From NCBI GenBank assembly GCA_937982115.1, contig CALJNE010000009.1, forward strand, positions 88,582 through 143,626: a stretch of DNA of 55,045 bases, written 5' to 3'. Both the position numbers and the translations under genes were made by a program. Positions 2 through 19,865 of the stretch are shown in pieces. Position 1 is the stretch's first letter. The number at the start of each line of letters is the position of its first letter. This DNA comes from an uncultured Bacteroidales bacterium (lineage in GTDB: Bacteria; Bacteroidota; Bacteroidia; Bacteroidales; ML635J-15). The notes under the pieces are model-generated. The model saw only the letters and a program-made list of their open reading frames with translations, did no database searches and had not been told where the DNA came from.

Positions 2-1105
2 TTTTTCTTCCTCCTCGACACTTACAACCGGATGTTCTTTAATGCATCTTTTGGAATTTTTGTTAAAGAATTTCTGCTGAGAATTTTAAACCTTCTTGGC
101 ATAATTCTATTTTACTTAAAAGTATTTGATTTTCATGAATTTATCATTTTTTACACAATAGCTTACGGGGTGCCAACAATTTTACTTTGTTTGCTTTTAA
201 TAATTAGAGGAGAATTTTCTCTAAAACCGGATTTTAAATTCATTAACTCTAAAATTTTACGTGAAATAATTTCTGTAGCACTTTTTGGAATTGTTTCCGG
301 ATTTAGCGGCTTGGTTGTAATGCAAGTTGACAGATACTTAGTAAACCATTACTGCAGTTTAAGTGATACAGGAATTTATTCAACTGTATTTTTCTTTGGT
401 TCGGTTATACTTATGCCGGGCAGATCTCTTATCCGTATAGCAAGCACTTCCATAGCAGAAGCTTTTAAGAAAGAAAACATTGATGAAGTAAATAAAATTT
501 ATTCCGGTAGTACAATAAATCTTAGTATTATTGGATTGTTGCTGTTTCTTTTGGTATGGATTAACACCGACAATATTTTAATGCTTTTGCCAGATGAATT
601 CAGTTCCGGCAAAATGGTAATCTTTTACATTGCTCTTGGTCATTTACTGCAAATGTATGCCGGGATCAGTGGGGAGATAATTCAATTTGGAAAATATTAT
701 AAGGAGCACAGTTTAATCATGATTTTTCTGATAATTTGCATTGTGGTTTTTAATATTATATTACTTCCTGTTTTCGGAATCACGGGGGCCGGAATTGCTT
801 TTGCTGTCTCTTTTCTTATTTATTGGATAATTCGAGTTTGGTTCGTTTACTCAAAGTACAAACTGTTTCCATATAAAAACAATTTCCTAAAATTGAATTT
901 GATTGGAATTTTATCTCTGATTATTAACGCACTTATTCCAAAAACTCCATTCATTTTTGATGTTTTAATCAGAACAAGTGTAATTACATCTATCTTTTTT
1001 GCTTTAATAATATATTTAAGGATTTCAGAAGATTACAATCAAAAAGCTCTGGCTTTGATAGAACGAATAAAACGATACCTTGCAGATTGGAGAAATCACA
1101 AATAA
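2..1105 (+). CDS. Oligosaccharide flippase (Wzx/MATE-like), 5' partial
   Basis: An integral membrane protein predicted to move lipid-linked oligosaccharide across the inner membrane for O-antigen or exopolysaccharide assembly. The reading frame is open to the left edge, so the N-terminus lies outside the window; the internal ATG at 32 is not the real start. About 367 residues remain, with roughly ten hydrophobic segments. The fragment VMQVDRYLVNHYCSLSDTG resembles the 'D+ (x) G-x-Y' stretch after the middle helices of polysaccharide exporters. The length fits the C-terminal three quarters of a 480-residue family member. The 3' end overlaps the convergent hydF by 10 bp. Family assignment is good; the actual substrate is unknown. 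Confidence 0.8.
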   Translation, partial: FFFLLDTYNRMFFNASFGIFVKEFLLRILNLLGIILFYLKVFDFHEFIIFYTIAYGVPTILLCLLLIIRGEFSLKPDFKFINSKILREIISVALFGIVSGFSGLVVMQVDRYLVNHYCSLSDTGIYSTVFFFGSVILMPGRSLIRIASTSIAEAFKKENIDEVNKIYSGSTINLSIIGLLLFLLVWINTDNILMLLPDEFSSGKMVIFYIALGHLLQMYAGISGEIIQFGKYYKEHSLIMIFLIICIVVFNIILLPVFGITGAGIAFAVSFLIYWIIRVWFVYSKYKLFPYKNNFLKLNLIGILSLIINALIPKTPFIFDVLIRTSVITSIFFALIIYLRISEDYNQKALALIERIKRYLADWRNHK

Positions 1106-2343
1106 TTAAGATCTGCATCATTAGCTTTCACAAAAGGTTCAATTGCTCTATCATATATTCCCTGCACAAAAGCTATGAGCATTCCATAATTAGTAACAGG
1201 CACTCCTGCATCAACAGCAGGTTTTAACCGCGAAATTACTTGTTTGCGAGTAAGAACACATCCACCACACTGAACAACAAGAGCATAATCTGTTATTTTA
1301 CCGGGAATTTCATCAAGTCCGGCAACAACAGTATATTCAAGAGATTTGCCTGTATAATTGCTTAACCATCTGGGAATTTTTACTCTGCCAATATCATCAC
1401 AGGACACATGATGACTACAACTTTCGAGAATCAAGACTTGATCACCATCCTTGAGTTCGTTGATTTTTGGTGTTCCTAAAAGATAATTATCAAAATCTCC
1501 TTTATATCTTGCCAATAAAACAGAAAAACCCGTTAGCGGAATATCTCGTGGGATAGAAGCCGCAGCTTTTAGAAATATTTGAGAGTCGGTGATTGCCAAT
1601 TTGGGTTTTATCCCTGTTTTTTTTAAAAATGTATCAACCTCACGTTCTTTTAAAACAATTGCCACACAATCGTTATCCAGAATATCCCTTATTGTTTGAA
1701 CCTGTGGCAATATTAACCTGCCTTGAGGGGCCTCAATATCTATCGGAGTGATCAGTAAAACTATATCCCCGTAACTTACTAAATCACCAAGCAGAGAAGT
1801 AATTTTCCACGATGACTCGGGAAGCAAATCTTTTATGGCCTTTAACAAAATTTCTGTATTGCCATTAGATTCAACAGAATAATCAATTACCGGACAATTA
1901 AATTTTTCTTGAATTTTCTTTTGTAATTCTTTATTAAGTTTTACAAGGTCTGATTTGTTATGAATGATAAAGAACGGGATTCCTTCTTTTTTAAATTGTT
2001 CGATCAAATTTTCTTCTTCAACATCAAAACTATTTTCGCTTATAACTAGGATTGCAAGATCAATTTCCTTTAGAGTTTTAAGTGATTTTTGAACTCTGAG
2101 TTTCCCCACTTCACCTTCGTCATCAATTCCTGCAGTATCAATCAAAATTACAGGGCCGAATCCTGTAATTTCAAAAGACCTTTTCACCGGATCTGTGGTA
2201 GTCCCTTTAAAATCGGCAACAATAGCTATTTCCTGCCCTGAAATATTGTTTATTAAAGAACTTTTCCCAACATTGCGACGTCCGTAAATTCCGATATGTG
2301 GTTTATTTTCTTTGCCTTTCTTCATTCTAAAAAAGTTTTTCAA
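1096..2343 (-). CDS. hydF: [FeFe]-hydrogenase H-cluster maturation GTPase HydF
   Basis: HydF is the scaffold GTPase on which the 2Fe subcluster of [FeFe]-hydrogenase is assembled before transfer to HydA, working with the radical-SAM enzymes HydE and HydG. The 415-residue protein has an N-terminal Era-like GTPase domain (P-loop GRRNVGKSS, Switch II DTAG, NKSD) and the cluster-binding C-terminal domain. The family signature CxH-x(46-53)-CxxC is intact: C309, H311, C359 and C362, with 47 residues between H311 and C359. Length is normal for the family. Neither hydE, hydG nor a hydrogenase gene is in the window, so the partners must be elsewhere. The gene runs convergent to the flippase and divergent from the cyclase gene. 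Met7 is an alternative start. Confidence 0.95.
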   Translation of the reverse strand: MKNFFRMKKGKENKPHIGIYGRRNVGKSSLINNISGQEIAIVADFKGTTTDPVKRSFEITGFGPVILIDTAGIDDEGEVGKLRVQKSLKTLKEIDLAILVISENSFDVEEENLIEQFKKEGIPFFIIHNKSDLVKLNKELQKKIQEKFNCPVIDYSVESNGNTEILLKAIKDLLPESSWKITSLLGDLVSYGDIVLLITPIDIEAPQGRLILPQVQTIRDILDNDCVAIVLKEREVDTFLKKTGIKPKLAITDSQIFLKAAASIPRDIPLTGFSVLLARYKGDFDNYLLGTPKINELKDGDQVLILESCSHHVSCDDIGRVKIPRWLSNYTGKSLEYTVVAGLDEIPGKITDYALVVQCGGCVLTRKQVISRLKPAVDAGVPVTNYGMLIAFVQGIYDRAIEPFVKANDADLNYL

Positions 2344-2458: not shown

Positions 2459-5400
2459 ATGATGTTCAAAAAGATTTGTGTTTTACTTGTATTTTTACAA
2501 TTGATAACCTTAATTCGAGCACAAGAATACGGGTTACCGATGATTCACAACTTTGCCCCCAAAGACTATAGGCATGAAAATCAGAATTTCAGTATTGCAC
2601 AAGATAAAAATTCGATTATTTATGTTGGTAATGCAAATGGCATAATGGCATTTGATAACAGCACCTGGGATATTATCAAAGTTTCGGGACGCCCTATCAT
2701 AAGAATAAATGAAAAAAACGAAAAATTTTATGCAGGCTACAATCAAGCCGGAAAAATTGTTTACGAAGACGGCAAGATGAATATAAAACCTTTTAAGATT
2801 TTCGAGGAATTTAAACCCGGTCATTTTACAAATATTATTTACTTGAATGATGAATTGTTTTTAACCTCCGCACATCAATTATTTGCTTTAAAGAAAGATT
2901 CGTTAGACATTGAGATATCAAATGCTCCCGGGATTAAAATCTTTAAGATTCACAAAAAACTTTTAATTTACATTCCGCAAAGAGGCTTATATTATTGGGA
3001 TAAAAATAAAATAAAAGAGTTTGAAAACAGCAGTTTGTTCGAGGACCTTCCAATTCTTGATATTATTGATATTACAAATACAAAAAATGATTTCATAGTT
3101 TTAGTTGACGATGGTCAAATCCTTTATAAATATAAAAATAAAAATTTAATTCCGATAAAGAATAATATACAAGATTTTATAAAATCAAACATTTATACCT
3201 GCAGTATTCTCCTTAACGACGGAAGACTTATTATAGGCACGATGCATGGCGGTATAGTGTGTATTGATGAGAACGGAGAATTGTTATTTTCGGTTAATAG
3301 AGAATCCGGGTTAAGAGACAATTACATAACCGACATGATTATTGATAATTATGGTAGATTGTGGGTTTCAACCTACAATGGTATTTCCGTTTTAGAAATT
3401 AATTCTGAATTAAGTTTTTTTAGTTCATCTTTTGGCTTTACCGGAACAGTCTTATCTGTTATCAGATTTAATGGACAACTTTATATTGCAACAGTTAATG
3501 GGGTGTTTATTTACAATTCAAATAATATTTATGATGCAGGAAGGAAAATATTTGACATTAGAAAAAGATTTGAAAAGATTGAAGACATCCGTTCAATATG
3601 CTGGAAACTTACAGAAATCAATAACCATCTTTTTGCCTTAACAACTGATGGACTATATGAAATTACCGGGGAAAAGGCTACTTTAAAAATTAAAGGGTCT
3701 TTTAATTGCTATTCTTCAATGAGCTATCATCCGTCAAAATATCTTTTCGGAACTTCTGAAGGCATTTTAATGGCTAATATTACTAAAAATTCTATTGACA
3801 CTGTAGGATATGTTAAAGATTTTAAATATAGCATTAGAACAATCGCTGAAGATTATTTTGGAAATTTTTGGTTAGGGACAAATGAAGACGGACTATTTCA
3901 AACAGCTTTTCATACCGGATTAAAGAAAGACACAAAAATTTATCATTTTACTTCAGAACAAGGTTTACCTACTGATTTTGAATGGATAGATGTTTATCCC
4001 AGCTTTCAAGGAATTTTATTTTCAACAGACAAAGGAGTTTATAGATATAATTATTCAAAAAACAAATTTGATAAAGATACTCTTCTGGGCTATGACTTTT
4101 CTGACAATAAAAGATATTTATATCCAATAATTGAAGACATTAAAAAAAATATATGGTACAGTTGTATTACCAAAGAAGAATTTGAAAGAGAAACAGGATA
4201 TTTTATTTTTAACGGGGCAAATAAAAAATACACCCCAAATTACAAAAAGTTTGCTTTATTAAAAGAATATGTAATTGAATGCATATATCCAGAAAGTCCC
4301 GAAAAAGTATGGTTAGGAGCTTCTGATGGTCTAATTTTGTATAAACCTCTAAACAAAGGCTTCGACACGTTAAAGTTTGATTGTTTTATAAGAAATATTC
4401 AAATTGGGACTGATACAACCATATATTTTGCACCAGGCGAAAACTTATCTGATCGAAATATTTCATTTCATTTCAACAAAAAACGTATTCGATTTAACTT
4501 CTCGGCTCCCAAATTCGATATGCTTAATAACACAAAATACCAGGTAAAACTTGAAGGATTCGATAAGAATTGGTCTGAATGGACAGATAAAAATTTTAAA
4601 GAATACACTTCACTTTACGAAGGCTCCTATACTTTTAGAGTTCGTGCAATGGACTCTTATGGCAATATCAGCAACGAAGCATATCTCACTTTTGAAATCA
4701 CACCTCCGTTTTATAGGACATGGATTGCTTTTGTAATTTATACCATTATTCTTTCAGCAATAATTTTTGTAATAATTATTTTAGTTAAATACAACTATAA
4801 ACGCGAAGAAAACAAATTAAAAAAGAGAATCGAAGAAAAAACCAATGAACTTGCAAGGCAAAAAGAACAAATAGAACAATTAGTAGCTAAATTAATTCCG
4901 CAAGCAGCAGTTAATGAAATAAGGGATCAGGGTAAAGCAAAAACTCACCGATACGAAATGGTAACCGTGTTATTTGCTGATATACAGGGTTTTACAAAAT
5001 TTGCAGAATCTACAAAACCTGAAGAAGTAATAAAACATTTGAATGTAATTTTTAATTCTTTCGACAACATCATAGCAAAATACAATATCGAAAAAATAAA
5101 GACTATTGGAGATGCCTACATGTGTGCAGGAGGCATGCCCAAAGAAGACAATATAAATCCTATTCAGGTTGTGCTTGCAGCTTTAGAAATGCAAAGAGAA
5201 ATTCAACGTCTTAATGAAGCCGGAAACATAAAACTTGAAATTAGAATCGGAATACATACAGGACCGGTTGTAGCGGGTGTTATCGGAATTAAAAAGTTAG
5301 AATATGATATTTGGGGAGATACGGTAAATATTGCAAGTAGAATGGAGTCTTACGGAATGATAAACAAAGTAAATATCTCCGAACAAACTTATAATCACGT

Positions 5401-6133
5401 TAAAGACTTTTTTGTTTGCCAATACAGAGGCAAAATCGAAATAAAATACAAAGGTGAAATGGAAATGTACTTTGTACATGAAATAAAGAAAAATCTTTCT
5501 GTGGACGGAGATAGACAAACCCCCAATAAGAACTTCTTTATAAAACTTCAACATGTTCAGTTTAAAGATATTCAGGAAAAAACTCTTGAAAAATTGCAAA
5601 AAAGCCTTCCGTCAAACTTATATTACCACAATGTAAAACATACTATTGACATGCTTTACATCGTTGAAAAAATTGGTCGAGAAGAGGGTGTTGATGAAGA
5701 AGAAATGTTATTGTTGAAGTGTGCTGCTTTATTCCATGATGCAGGCTTTATATCACAATACGACAACAATGAAGAAATAGGAGCTAGCATGGCAGAGGCA
5801 GAGCTAAAAAATCACGGATTTACAGAAGAGCAAATCGAAACTGTAAAACGACTGATTTTGGCTACAAAAATGCCTCACAAACCCAAAGATTTATTAGAAA
5901 AAATAATGTGTGATGCCGACCTTGATTATCTCGGAAGACCGGATTTTATCCCAATATCTCAAAACCTTTTCCGGGAGCTATTCGAAAGAGGCAAAATAAG
6001 CACCATCGATCAATGGAATAAACTTCAATACAAGTTCATTGAAAAACATAAATATTTTACTGCAACTGCCCGAAAAGAGCGTGATCCCGAGAAACAAGTT
6101 GTTTTAAAGCAACTTAAGGAAATGTTTGAATAA
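2459..6133 (+). CDS. Propeller-sensor adenylate cyclase with C-terminal HD domain
   Basis: A 1224-residue membrane sensor. Order: signal peptide (1-21); periplasmic two-component-regulator-type propeller repeats (about 25-680, for example the DNYGRLWVSTYNG unit); Y_Y_Y domain (about 690-750); one membrane helix (about 755-777); coiled coil; class III nucleotide cyclase (about 835-1000); HD domain (about 1050-1180). Cyclase residues look intact: metal-binding D841 (FADIQGFT) and D885 (KTIGD), plus N957 and R961 for the transition state. The purine-selecting pair is K881 and D950, as in adenylate cyclases; guanylate cyclases have Glu and Cys. HD residues: H1057/H1061, H1093-D1094, D1152/D1154. 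Inferred role: cAMP made, and possibly degraded, in response to a periplasmic ligand. The HD substrate is unknown. The stop lies 10 bp before the ATG of the glycosyltransferase gene. Confidence 0.88.
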   Translation: MMFKKICVLLVFLQLITLIRAQEYGLPMIHNFAPKDYRHENQNFSIAQDKNSIIYVGNANGIMAFDNSTWDIIKVSGRPIIRINEKNEKFYAGYNQAGKIVYEDGKMNIKPFKIFEEFKPGHFTNIIYLNDELFLTSAHQLFALKKDSLDIEISNAPGIKIFKIHKKLLIYIPQRGLYYWDKNKIKEFENSSLFEDLPILDIIDITNTKNDFIVLVDDGQILYKYKNKNLIPIKNNIQDFIKSNIYTCSILLNDGRLIIGTMHGGIVCIDENGELLFSVNRESGLRDNYITDMIIDNYGRLWVSTYNGISVLEINSELSFFSSSFGFTGTVLSVIRFNGQLYIATVNGVFIYNSNNIYDAGRKIFDIRKRFEKIEDIRSICWKLTEINNHLFALTTDGLYEITGEKATLKIKGSFNCYSSMSYHPSKYLFGTSEGILMANITKNSIDTVGYVKDFKYSIRTIAEDYFGNFWLGTNEDGLFQTAFHTGLKKDTKIYHFTSEQGLPTDFEWIDVYPSFQGILFSTDKGVYRYNYSKNKFDKDTLLGYDFSDNKRYLYPIIEDIKKNIWYSCITKEEFERETGYFIFNGANKKYTPNYKKFALLKEYVIECIYPESPEKVWLGASDGLILYKPLNKGFDTLKFDCFIRNIQIGTDTTIYFAPGENLSDRNISFHFNKKRIRFNFSAPKFDMLNNTKYQVKLEGFDKNWSEWTDKNFKEYTSLYEGSYTFRVRAMDSYGNISNEAYLTFEITPPFYRTWIAFVIYTIILSAIIFVIIILVKYNYKREENKLKKRIEEKTNELARQKEQIEQLVAKLIPQAAVNEIRDQGKAKTHRYEMVTVLFADIQGFTKFAESTKPEEVIKHLNVIFNSFDNIIAKYNIEKIKTIGDAYMCAGGMPKEDNINPIQVVLAALEMQREIQRLNEAGNIKLEIRIGIHTGPVVAGVIGIKKLEYDIWGDTVNIASRMESYGMINKVNISEQTYNHVKDFFVCQYRGKIEIKYKGEMEMYFVHEIKKNLSVDGDRQTPNKNFFIKLQHVQFKDIQEKTLEKLQKSLPSNLYYHNVKHTIDMLYIVEKIGREEGVDEEEMLLLKCAALFHDAGFISQYDNNEEIGASMAEAELKNHGFTEEQIETVKRLILATKMPHKPKDLLEKIMCDADLDYLGRPDFIPISQNLFRELFERGKISTIDQWNKLQYKFIEKHKYFTATARKERDPEKQVVLKQLKEMFE

Positions 6134-10102: not shown

Positions 10103-10792
10103 TCATCCAAGTTCACAAATTTTTTTTAGTTTCTTAATGTCTTTCAATGTAATTTTTTTTCCTTCGAGTTTAATTATATTCTCCTTGCTGAATTCCGACA
10201 GTATCCTGATAACATTTTCCGGAGTTAAATCTATGAGCTGAGCTATTTCCTTACGTCTCAATGGAATTTCATAACTGTATGAATATTTGATTTTTTCGGC
10301 AAAAAACAACAAAACATATGCTATTCTTCCTCGCATATTTTTCATACTGAGCATAAGTTTCTGTAACATTATTTCATCGGTATTTTTGCTCATTTTCTCA
10401 ATTAGTGCAACTGCAAATTGCCCGTTATTTAAAGCAATGGATTTTATTTTATCCATTCTAATGCAACAAATAACTGAATCTGTAAGAGCAGAAACTCTAT
10501 ACTTATGATAAGGCTCAGAAAAAACCGTAAGCAAACTTACAAAATTCATTGGAGTACCAATACTGATTATTTGTTCTTTACCGATTTGATTATAAAAATA
10601 GTTTTTTACTAAACCTGATTTTAAGTAGAAAAAATCAACTACCGGATCTCCCTCTTTAACAATAATTTCTCCTTTTTTATAAAACTTCTCTTTTTTGAAA
10701 TCGCACAAGGAGTTTATTTCTTCATCTTTCATATTAGTAAGAACTAATTCGCGGTATTTGCAATTCTGACAATCGCAAGTTGTACTTCCCAT
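10103..10792 (-). CDS. Crp/Fnr-family transcriptional regulator with N-terminal Cys cluster
   Basis: A 229-residue regulator with a cyclic-nucleotide-binding-fold domain (about 35-130), a dimer helix and a winged helix-turn-helix (about 165-225; recognition region LTPENVIRILSEF). The N-terminus carries C6, C8 and C11 plus C30, and C109/C110 lie where FNR has its fourth ligand region, so an oxygen- or redox-responsive metal or Fe-S site is possible. The phosphate-binding cassette lacks the GE..RxA pattern of cAMP receptors, which argues against cAMP binding even though an adenylate cyclase is encoded nearby. It is divergent from the dus gene across 66 bp, so the two may share control. Fe-S binding is inferred from cysteine positions only. 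Confidence 0.85.
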   Translation of the reverse strand: MGSTTCDCQNCKYRELVLTNMKDEEINSLCDFKKEKFYKKGEIIVKEGDPVVDFFYLKSGLVKNYFYNQIGKEQIISIGTPMNFVSLLTVFSEPYHKYRVSALTDSVICCIRMDKIKSIALNNGQFAVALIEKMSKNTDEIMLQKLMLSMKNMRGRIAYVLLFFAEKIKYSYSYEIPLRRKEIAQLIDLTPENVIRILSEFSKENIIKLEGKKITLKDIKKLKKICELG

Positions 10793-17966: not shown

Positions 17967-19865
17967 TTATATTTTCAGAATTTTATAACTGATGATAAGA
18001 TTATCATCAGTTTTTATTTTTATAAAATAAATTCCTTTTTCAAATTCTCTTAATGAAAAACTACTAATATTTTCAACATTAGAATCAAAAATTAGCCTAG
18101 CTAAAGAATCATAAATAATAATTCTTCCACATAGTTGATTATTAAAATAAATTTCTTCACTATTGATATCATAAAATAAATAAAAATTACGCTCACTAAA
18201 TGTTTTATTGATATCACTAATCAAAAAATAAATACATTCAGAGGTGTCAGAACAATTATTTTCTGTAACAATAACTGCATAATTACCACTATAATAAGGA
18301 TAAAAAAATTGATTAGTCTCTCCATAAATCTCTTGATTTAAATCGCAGCTAAACCATTGATATGAACAATTATTGTTCAAAGTAAATAAATAATCATCAT
18401 AGGTTTCTATTTCAGTATTTGGAATAGTAATATTAAAACTAATAATTTCAGTTGTATCTTTTGATAAACAAGGACCCCATGCTATACATCTCAGAAGAAG
18501 ATCTTCAAAATCACTTGTAATAATGTTGATAGTAATATCCGATGAATAAACATTATTAAAATTTTCATTTTCTTCTATATCCTGCCAGATAATATTATCG
18601 TAGCTAAATTGCCACATAAAAATAGAAGCACTTGTTACCTCAATTGAGATTGTTTCTGTTGAATTAAGACAAGTGTTGATTATTTCTGGTTGAAAAACAA
18701 TCTCAACAGGATAAATGATGGGATAACAACTAAAAACAGAATCAAACTCTGTATAATAACATCTTCCAAATTGATGTGCCTCATCAACTCCAGTGATACA
18801 GTAATTTTCGCCAACAGAATCTAAAACAATCGTATAATCCAACCCAGCAAAAATTTTCTCATAATGATTATCATTAACTTTAACAGGAGAATAGCGATTT
18901 TGAGTATCATTTAATCCAAGACTACCACGATGATTACGTCCCCATGTCCAGATGGTACCGTCAGTTTTTAAAGCAATGTTATGACAGCTACCTGCATATA
19001 TTTTTGACCAATCTGCATCTGTACCAATTTGAACCGGTGTTTGTTGTATAAAACCATCTGGTGCATCTATTCCTAAAACACCAAATAAATTTCCTCCCCA
19101 AGTCCATAAAGTACCATCTGATTTTAGTGCCAATACATGATAGTTCCCTAACGAAATTTCAGACCATACACAATTATCAGAAATAAAAGTTGGATAACTA
19201 ATAACTTCACTAGAGGGTAATCCAAGAGTACAATAATAATTAAATCCCCATCCCCAGAGAGAACCGTCAATCTTTTTAGCAATCACAGTTGATCCTGAAA
19301 CAATAATTGTATCCCAATCGTAATCAGAACCAACCATTTGTGGATGATCCACAACTAAATTTATATCGTTCGAGCCAACTCCCAAGCATCCATAGGTATT
19401 TAAACCCCACGACCATAAGCTACCATCATTTTTAATAGCAAAACCTGAATAAATACCTGCAGCAATAATTTTCCAATCATTATCATTCCCAATTTGCACA
19501 GGCAAAAGAACATCATCTCCTGCCATTACACCTACCTGCCCAACTGAATTCATTCCCCAACCCCAGATTGTGCCATCAGATTTTTTTGCAAGTGTATGCA
19601 TATAACCACAACTAACTGTTTCCCATTCAATATCTTCAGTAATTATAGTAGTAATGTATCCACCCCAATAATTACCAGTTCCTAATTGACCATAACCATT
19701 GTATCCAACACCCCATAATCTACCGTCGGAAGTATTAAAAATCCAATGTTTTCCTCCTGGAAAAACTTTTTGTATCTTAACTTGAAAATCTTGAGAATAA
19801 AGTGTAGAAAATAAAAAAAAGAATGTTACAAAAAACATTAAATTCTTTGATTTAATCTTTTTCAT
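17967..19865 (-). CDS. Secreted RCC1-repeat propeller protein with T9SS-like C-terminus
   Basis: A 632-residue exported protein. After a signal peptide (1-24), six clear RCC1 units with the core DGx(L/I)WxWGxNxxGxLG lie at about 47-62, 97-112, 147-162, 200-215, 250-265 and 302-317; a weak seventh at about 350-368 would complete a seven-bladed propeller. Next come two Ig-like/PKD-like modules with paired cysteines (about 385-560), then an 80-residue end (about 553-632) with the features of a type A type IX sorting domain: IYDSLARLIFD, FEKGIYFIKIKT and a final basic strand. Probably a cell-surface or released adhesion or binding protein. The ligand is unknown. PorQ of the same export route is encoded at 53.2-54.3 kb. 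Confidence 0.82.
   Translation of the reverse strand: MKKIKSKNLMFFVTFFFLFSTLYSQDFQVKIQKVFPGGKHWIFNTSDGRLWGVGYNGYGQLGTGNYWGGYITTIITEDIEWETVSCGYMHTLAKKSDGTIWGWGMNSVGQVGVMAGDDVLLPVQIGNDNDWKIIAAGIYSGFAIKNDGSLWSWGLNTYGCLGVGSNDINLVVDHPQMVGSDYDWDTIIVSGSTVIAKKIDGSLWGWGFNYYCTLGLPSSEVISYPTFISDNCVWSEISLGNYHVLALKSDGTLWTWGGNLFGVLGIDAPDGFIQQTPVQIGTDADWSKIYAGSCHNIALKTDGTIWTWGRNHRGSLGLNDTQNRYSPVKVNDNHYEKIFAGLDYTIVLDSVGENYCITGVDEAHQFGRCYYTEFDSVFSCYPIIYPVEIVFQPEIINTCLNSTETISIEVTSASIFMWQFSYDNIIWQDIEENENFNNVYSSDITINIITSDFEDLLLRCIAWGPCLSKDTTEIISFNITIPNTEIETYDDYLFTLNNNCSYQWFSCDLNQEIYGETNQFFYPYYSGNYAVIVTENNCSDTSECIYFLISDINKTFSERNFYLFYDINSEEIYFNNQLCGRIIIYDSLARLIFDSNVENISSFSLREFEKGIYFIKIKTDDNLIISYKILKI
17987..18021 (+). 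terminator. Terminator of the atp operon, inside the convergent gene
   Basis: A 12-base arm (AACTGATGATAA) and its exact complement around a central GA, followed by TTTTTATTTTT on the plus strand. The realistic fold is a 10-bp stem with a six-base loop. It lies 26 bp after atpG but within the last codons of the RCC1 gene, so those codons are shared with a transcription signal. Confidence 0.8.

Follow-up and report, generated by a model that had tools for sequence, protein, structure and literature searches.

The hybrid two-component system (HTCS) sensors are described, in the available part of the source, as Reg_prop propellers and a YYY domain followed by phosphorelay domains (PMC3243724). 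In the class I cyclic nucleotide phosphodiesterases (PDEs), according to an excerpt of another paper, a conserved glutamine binds the purine and a phenylalanine three residues on serves as a clamp, these being Gln443 and Phe446 in PDE4B (PMC11820465), while the signals of Pycsar are given, in the accessible portion of a third, as cyclic CMP (cCMP) and cyclic UMP (cUMP) (PMC9117128). The gene considered here lies at 2459-6133 (+) of a 55,045-nucleotide stretch of DNA from an uncultured Bacteroidales bacterium (contig CALJNE010000009.1, assembly GCA_937982115.1), the whole of which is called the window. Its open reading frame (ORF) starts with ATG and codes for 1224 amino acids that comprise, by Pfam and hydropathy, a periplasmic sensor, a transmembrane segment, a class III cyclase and an HD domain. 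Judged from the sequences of its relatives, the cyclase and the HD domain appear to form one functional unit; the family-wide evidence for this unit and a candidate switch residue at position 1190 are new, while each part taken singly is of a known kind. The architecture was not found described in the open-access literature, a scope that leaves most subscription journals outside.

The most likely mechanism, with a probability somewhat above one half (about 0.55), is the sensor-controlled synthesis and hydrolysis of cyclic AMP (cAMP) by one and the same protein. The protein would be an inner-membrane receptor-enzyme of Bacteroidales, whose double-propeller/Y_Y_Y periplasmic sensor would bind a ligand, by analogy with the HTCS sensors an oligosaccharide; the signal would pass via one transmembrane helix and a parallel coiled coil, altering how a homodimer of the class III cyclase, which would convert ATP to cAMP, is packed, and the C-terminal HD domain would act as a metal-dependent phosphodiesterase cutting the same cyclic nucleotide to 5'-AMP. 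If the HD domain hydrolyses the product of its own cyclase, one protein sets and clears the signal, and a single molecule may thus determine the signal level in both directions; we infer cAMP as the HD substrate, the control by a ligand and the balance between the two activities.

Sensor and cyclase of the receptor-enzyme

The Pfam matches follow one another in the order Reg_prop (residues 284-307, E 1.2e-12), Y_Y_Y (PF07495, residues 687-747, positions 4517-4699, E 8.7e-10), Guanylate_cyc (PF00211, residues 829-1007, positions 4943-5479, E 1.8e-59) and HD (PF01966, residues 1060-1154, E 3.3e-10), all four above their own Pfam cut-offs, so that the composition read by the original prediction from the letters alone is recovered by the domain search; no curated NCBIfam family matched the whole protein, the HD domain or the relatives. 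By hydropathy, there is a signal-peptide-like hydrophobic N-terminus (about residues 1-21, positions 2459-2521, with a presumed peptide end) and a single later hydrophobic segment, with 19-residue windows starting at residues 751-763 (about residues 751-781, positions 4709-4801), which places the sensor in the periplasm and the output in the cytoplasm. The sequence that follows is coiled-coil-like and probably serves as a cytoplasmic linker (about residues 780-828, positions 4796-4942); the alignments with cyclases of the PDB start at residues 752-801.

The sensor was modelled by AlphaFold as residues 20-752 (positions 2516-4714) from a 13-row alignment, with a mean predicted local distance difference test score (pLDDT) of 88.6, and the best match of this model in the PDB is the whole periplasmic domain of the Bacteroides heparin sensor BT4663 (4a2l; Foldseek E 2.2e-32, template modelling score 0.73), with BT3049 (3v9f) and then BT4673 as the next ones. 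Only one significant Reg_prop stretch (284-307) was recognised by Pfam, though the model fits the entire periplasmic domain of BT4663. A Reg_prop/Y_Y_Y periplasmic sensor of the hybrid two-component type was thus found both by Pfam and by Foldseek, which upholds the propeller/Y_Y_Y input domain proposed earlier. The likeness to the HTCS glycan sensors of Bacteroides embraces the whole periplasmic domain, propellers and Y_Y_Y, but not the output: those proteins continue with a histidine kinase, receiver and AraC-type output, whereas none of the three has a Pfam match within the 1224 amino acids, which hold a cyclase and an HD domain instead; the protein is therefore not an HTCS.

The Guanylate_cyc match reaches 200.8 bits against a cut-off of 21.9, and the catalytic residues D841, D885, K881, D950, N957 and R961 are all present, their roles being taken from the mammalian enzymes: D841/D885 presumably for the metal, K881/D950 for the purine and N957/R961 for the transition state. 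Both KIKTIGD (879-885), which contains K881, and EYDIWGD (948-954), which contains D950, were aligned by HMMER to the human-type adenylate cyclases 8 and 9 of the PDB, and so a misalignment of the core, the objection that the original prediction had raised against itself, is excluded, and its ATP-type residues are in place. Taking the K/D pair as the mark of ATP use, the cyclase probably accepts ATP as substrate, and it would work as a homodimer. It shares the catalytic domain with metal aspartates, K/D and N/R pairs with the class III adenylate cyclases (mammalian AC8/AC9; mycobacterial 5o5k/4p2f) and differs from them by the propeller sensor and the C-terminal HD domain. PF00211 matches only this gene in its own genome (2.7 Mb, 90.65% complete).

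The survey for the same architecture revealed a conserved Bacteroidales module and hence not a one-off. Within the genus, the gene is present in 24 of 25 genomes, uninterrupted in 21; near full-length matches were obtained in 22 of the 25, including one with two in-frame stops (G011), in two genomes it is split in two (G019, where the pieces lie at contig edges, and G007), and in one (G010) it was not found. Near full-length matches were also obtained in all five other genomes of the family and, among the 69 genomes of the order outside this family, in 8. The cyclase residues and HD ligands are invariant across the 13-row alignment, and all six cyclase residues are kept in 17/17 long sensor proteins of the genome_contigs set.

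The HD domain and its linkage to cyclases

The HD module (residues 1021-1224, positions 5519-6130) exceeds its Pfam match, as follows from conservation and from an AlphaFold model with a mean pLDDT of 96.9; the alignment used, A3, has 90 rows, from 15 of the 18 HD domains of the first set and 75 of the 94 of the cyclase-HD set described below, with at least one gene included twice (L032 being L070). The metal ligands H1061, H1093, D1094 and D1154 are invariant in the 18-row HD alignment, confirming their predicted integrity, as are the further HD residues H1057 and D1152; the H...HD...D ligand set of the superfamily is accompanied by PF01966 above its cut-off, by the model and by the PDB matches.

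With the first HD alignment, genome_contigs was scanned, and the best 80 of 564 confirmed loci were kept, all of Bacteroidota by the titles of their records. At 80/80 of them, a single ORF encodes a cyclase followed by the HD domain at the C-terminal end, the N-termini of the fusions ranging from about 60 amino acids to the full sensor; since most proteins in the query alignment were fusions, close relatives are over-represented in this set. Elsewhere in the Bacteroidota, the HD domain exists also as a stand-alone protein (about 195 amino acids), fused to a TPR protein (L160, L161) and behind a kinase-GAF-cyclase protein (L162). Among the HD domains with glutamine at position 1190 (Q-type) that are not fused to a cyclase, 10 of 22 distinct ones have a cyclase ORF no farther than 1.25 kb away, as compared with 0/36 of the non-Q ones, most of which were seen with flanks of about 1.2 kb; the neighbour is in several cases an ORF of about 345 amino acids, assigned by Pfam as Response_reg plus Guanylate_cyc at L149. 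In addition, PF00211 is held by 23/23 genomes with a strong HD match versus 195/395 genomes of the phylum overall (22/22 with the own genome excluded, hypergeometric 9e-8 with kinship ignored), where "strong" means a threshold of 160 bits chosen after the data were seen, which takes in one non-Q member (G223, L221); without the latter, 22/22 genomes hold PF00211. As a separate observation, at four loci (L157-L159, L236; Pfam for L157) the HD domain is joined to a membrane protein of the YitT/DUF2179 kind, and a small cyclase gene lies next to the fusion.

In the search of the PDB with the HD model, Foldseek gave 2pq7 (E 3.1e-4), PDE5 (7far, 4.9e-4) and YpgQ (5dqw, 8.2e-4), followed mostly by entries of PDE5, PDE4 and PDE10, and in the profile comparison 2pq7 was the best match (E 6.2e-7). 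As modelled, the fold falls between the small HD hydrolases and the class I cyclic nucleotide PDEs, deciding for neither. With the class I PDEs (PF00233; PDE4, PDE5) the domain shares the predicted fold, an aligned YHNxxH start motif and the Q-x2-F spacing, Q1190 and F1193 being invariant and set as Gln443 and Phe446 are in PDE4B in the excerpt cited above; it differs in its length of about 200 residues, its bacterial origin and its fusion to a cyclase. Several results count against its being a cAMP phosphodiesterase: the E-values for PDE5, 2pq7 and YpgQ are alike, so that a PDE and a nucleoside triphosphate (NTP) pyrophosphohydrolase are not separated by them; no PDEase_I (PF00233) match was found for the window HD domain in Pfam; the relatives, some of which are weakly matched by this profile over the start motif, stay below its cut-off, except one borderline sum (25.1 versus 24.8); the comparison of A3 with PDE4D by hhalign covers 42 columns only (probability 10.6, E 0.0029), namely the YHNxxH block, with the Q1190/F1193 region outside the alignment; and the equivalence of Q1190/F1193 to the PDE4 pair is based on spacing, not on superposition. 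A search of 395 Bacteroidota genomes with PF00233 yielded 7 weak matches, among them at least two members of this HD family (G477, G359) and three fusions of HD with PycTM.

The alternative that survives best, though it is unlikely, is that of another nucleotide phosphohydrolase, for example, a pyrophosphohydrolase of NTPs or deoxy-NTPs like YpgQ of Bacillus or an enzyme of linear nucleotides, fused for the handling of substrate or by-product, with the signal made by the cyclase alone. It draws on 2pq7 heading both the profile and the fold matches, with YpgQ third in fold; against it are the equal closeness of the fold to class I PDEs and the linkage of this HD type to the makers of cyclic nucleotides and, in relatives, to the effector PycTM. 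With the YpgQ/2pq7-type hydrolases the domain has size, HD ligands and fold in common; its linkage to cyclases and the invariant Q1190/F1193 set it apart.

Loss of either half in cyclase-HD proteins

The 80 loci provided 94 cyclase-HD proteins, 38 of which keep all tested residues. The HD ligands are lost with a full cyclase in 14; the converse, changed cyclase residues beside a full HD domain, is seen in 42, 21 at the metal or transition-state positions and 21 solely at K881/D950; both halves are lost in 0/94. The Fisher p of 1.8e-4 for the absence of double loss ignores kinship and, because the HD loss is a single event and the 94 proteins are related, it is not a fair probability, which likewise takes from the case for cAMP hydrolysis. 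On a quick HD tree, the HD loss is one event and the cyclase loss at metal or transition-state positions at least nine changes. The absence of double loss is read here as selection that allows the loss of either half but not of both.

The earlier suggestion, by which the product of the cyclase is the substrate of the HD domain, is supported in part: the fusion and neighbourhood with cyclases, the lack of double loss and the fold near class I PDEs speak for it, but the fold matches YpgQ alike and the profile comparison with PDE4D aligned the first motif only. A mainly regulatory or scaffolding HD domain, which binds a nucleotide and tunes the cyclase with weak or absent catalysis, appears improbable. 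The whole paralogue clade of 14 keeps a degenerate HD domain behind an intact cyclase, so that the HD fold is useful even by itself. Against this reading, all four ligands are kept by the window protein and by 80/94 relatives, also by the 42 in which the cyclase is changed.

Two cyclase-HD genes stand a few kb apart at 14 loci (L085, L094, L098, L103, L107, L110, L117, L120, L122, L123, L126, L131, L134, L137), the upstream gene with an intact HD domain and the downstream one with an intact cyclase and a degenerate HD domain; at the loci with listed genes (L094, L107, L117, L126, L131 and L137), the pair is separated by a PorZ-like propeller gene and an RdgB-like gene, both named by eye. A strict reciprocity of such pairs was rejected, the upstream cyclase keeping its six residues at 11 of the 14 loci, with K881 replaced by R in 3. 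Of 14 genomes selected by eye because the cyclase motifs of their short protein looked unusual, 11 proved to have a changed residue and 3 did not; another PF00211 gene is present in 10 of the 11, with the six residues kept in 8, R961 changed in one and one unread.

Position 1190, signal receptors and the neighbourhood

Glutamine occupies position 1190 in 81/81 intact cyclase-fused HD domains and in 23 further distinct ones, 104 in sum, 82 of them cyclase-fused with L162 counted in, and in 0/22 PycTM-fused ones, which have N (13), S (5), T (3) or D (1) there; PycTM was called by Pfam for L164-L166 and for the rest by a profile built from those three. The Q group has 33 columns conserved to at least 95%, and in just three of these does the PycTM group lack the residue completely or almost so: Y1157 (His in 22/22), Q1190 and L1091 (Trp in 19/22). 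The metal ligands are common to both, and the PycTM proteins with an N-terminal HD domain belong to the same HD family, differing by the fusion to a membrane effector, by N/S/T/D at 1190 and by His at 1157. A further 14 HD domains are neither Q-type nor seen fused to PycTM. Judging by these residue patterns, position 1190 is possibly a purine/pyrimidine switch, a reading weakened by Q versus non-Q being a single change on the HD tree.

Tentatively, and with more doubt than assurance, the HD domain may found a clade, so far undescribed, of bacterial phosphodiesterases for cyclic mononucleotides in which a few residues set the base specificity: Q1190 (with Y1157 and L1091) would serve purine cAMP where the domain is linked to a cyclase, and N/S/T/D (with His and Trp) the pyrimidine cyclic nucleoside monophosphates (cNMPs) of Pycsar where it is linked to PycTM. 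In Bacteroidales the clade would be a cyclase-fused make-and-break unit, the labour of which could be shared out among paralogues, some with the cyclase dead and others with the HD domain dead. The HD domain stands in front of PycTM, a Pycsar effector, in many Bacteroidota genomes (L164-L166, L201-L220 except L216), and in such fusions it may serve to switch off the immune signal from within the same protein.

Beside the single class III cyclase, the own genome encodes five CRP-like proteins with a cNMP_binding domain; the motif GE[L]..R[ST], presumably the cAMP motif of E. coli CRP, was found in 0/5 of them, another point against the proposed mechanism. The CRP-like gene at 10103-10792 (-) was rejected as the cAMP receptor, a role left unproven by the absence of that motif; its product, CRP/FNR-like and bearing a CxC..C cluster at its N-terminus, resembles rather a sensor of redox state or of something else. 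That the cyclase yields not cAMP but cGMP or a pyrimidine cNMP, in a pathway other than cAMP signalling, is the least probable alternative, suggested by a PADLOC match to the Pycsar-cyclase profiles (PycC, best E 8.4e-22) and by the motif-negative CRP-like proteins but countered by these profiles being class III cyclases that would match any, by K881/D950, taken as the ATP pair, with the alignment to the mammalian adenylate cyclases, and by the absence of PycTM from the 20 proteins of the window that were scanned with Pfam. A PycC cyclase with an adjoining Pyc effector was thus not encountered, and the PycC matches denote class III kinship only.

Divergently beside the gene lies hydF (hydrogenase maturation; 1096-2343 (-)), as it does in 14 of 109 loci compared, which include some genes fetched twice; as far as the fetched flanks reach, a GT9 gene follows downstream in L009, the nearest relative, and in no other locus. 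These neighbours were not taken as a clue to function. Farther on, at 17967-19865 (-), the window encodes a 632-amino-acid protein with RCC1 repeats.

If the proposed sensor-controlled synthesis and hydrolysis of cAMP is true, the HTCS-type periplasmic sensing in Bacteroidota would reach a cyclic nucleotide too, and not just histidine kinases. If, further, position 1190 chooses between purine and pyrimidine, the housekeeping cAMP signalling and the shut-off of the Pycsar immune signals would be linked through one enzyme family.

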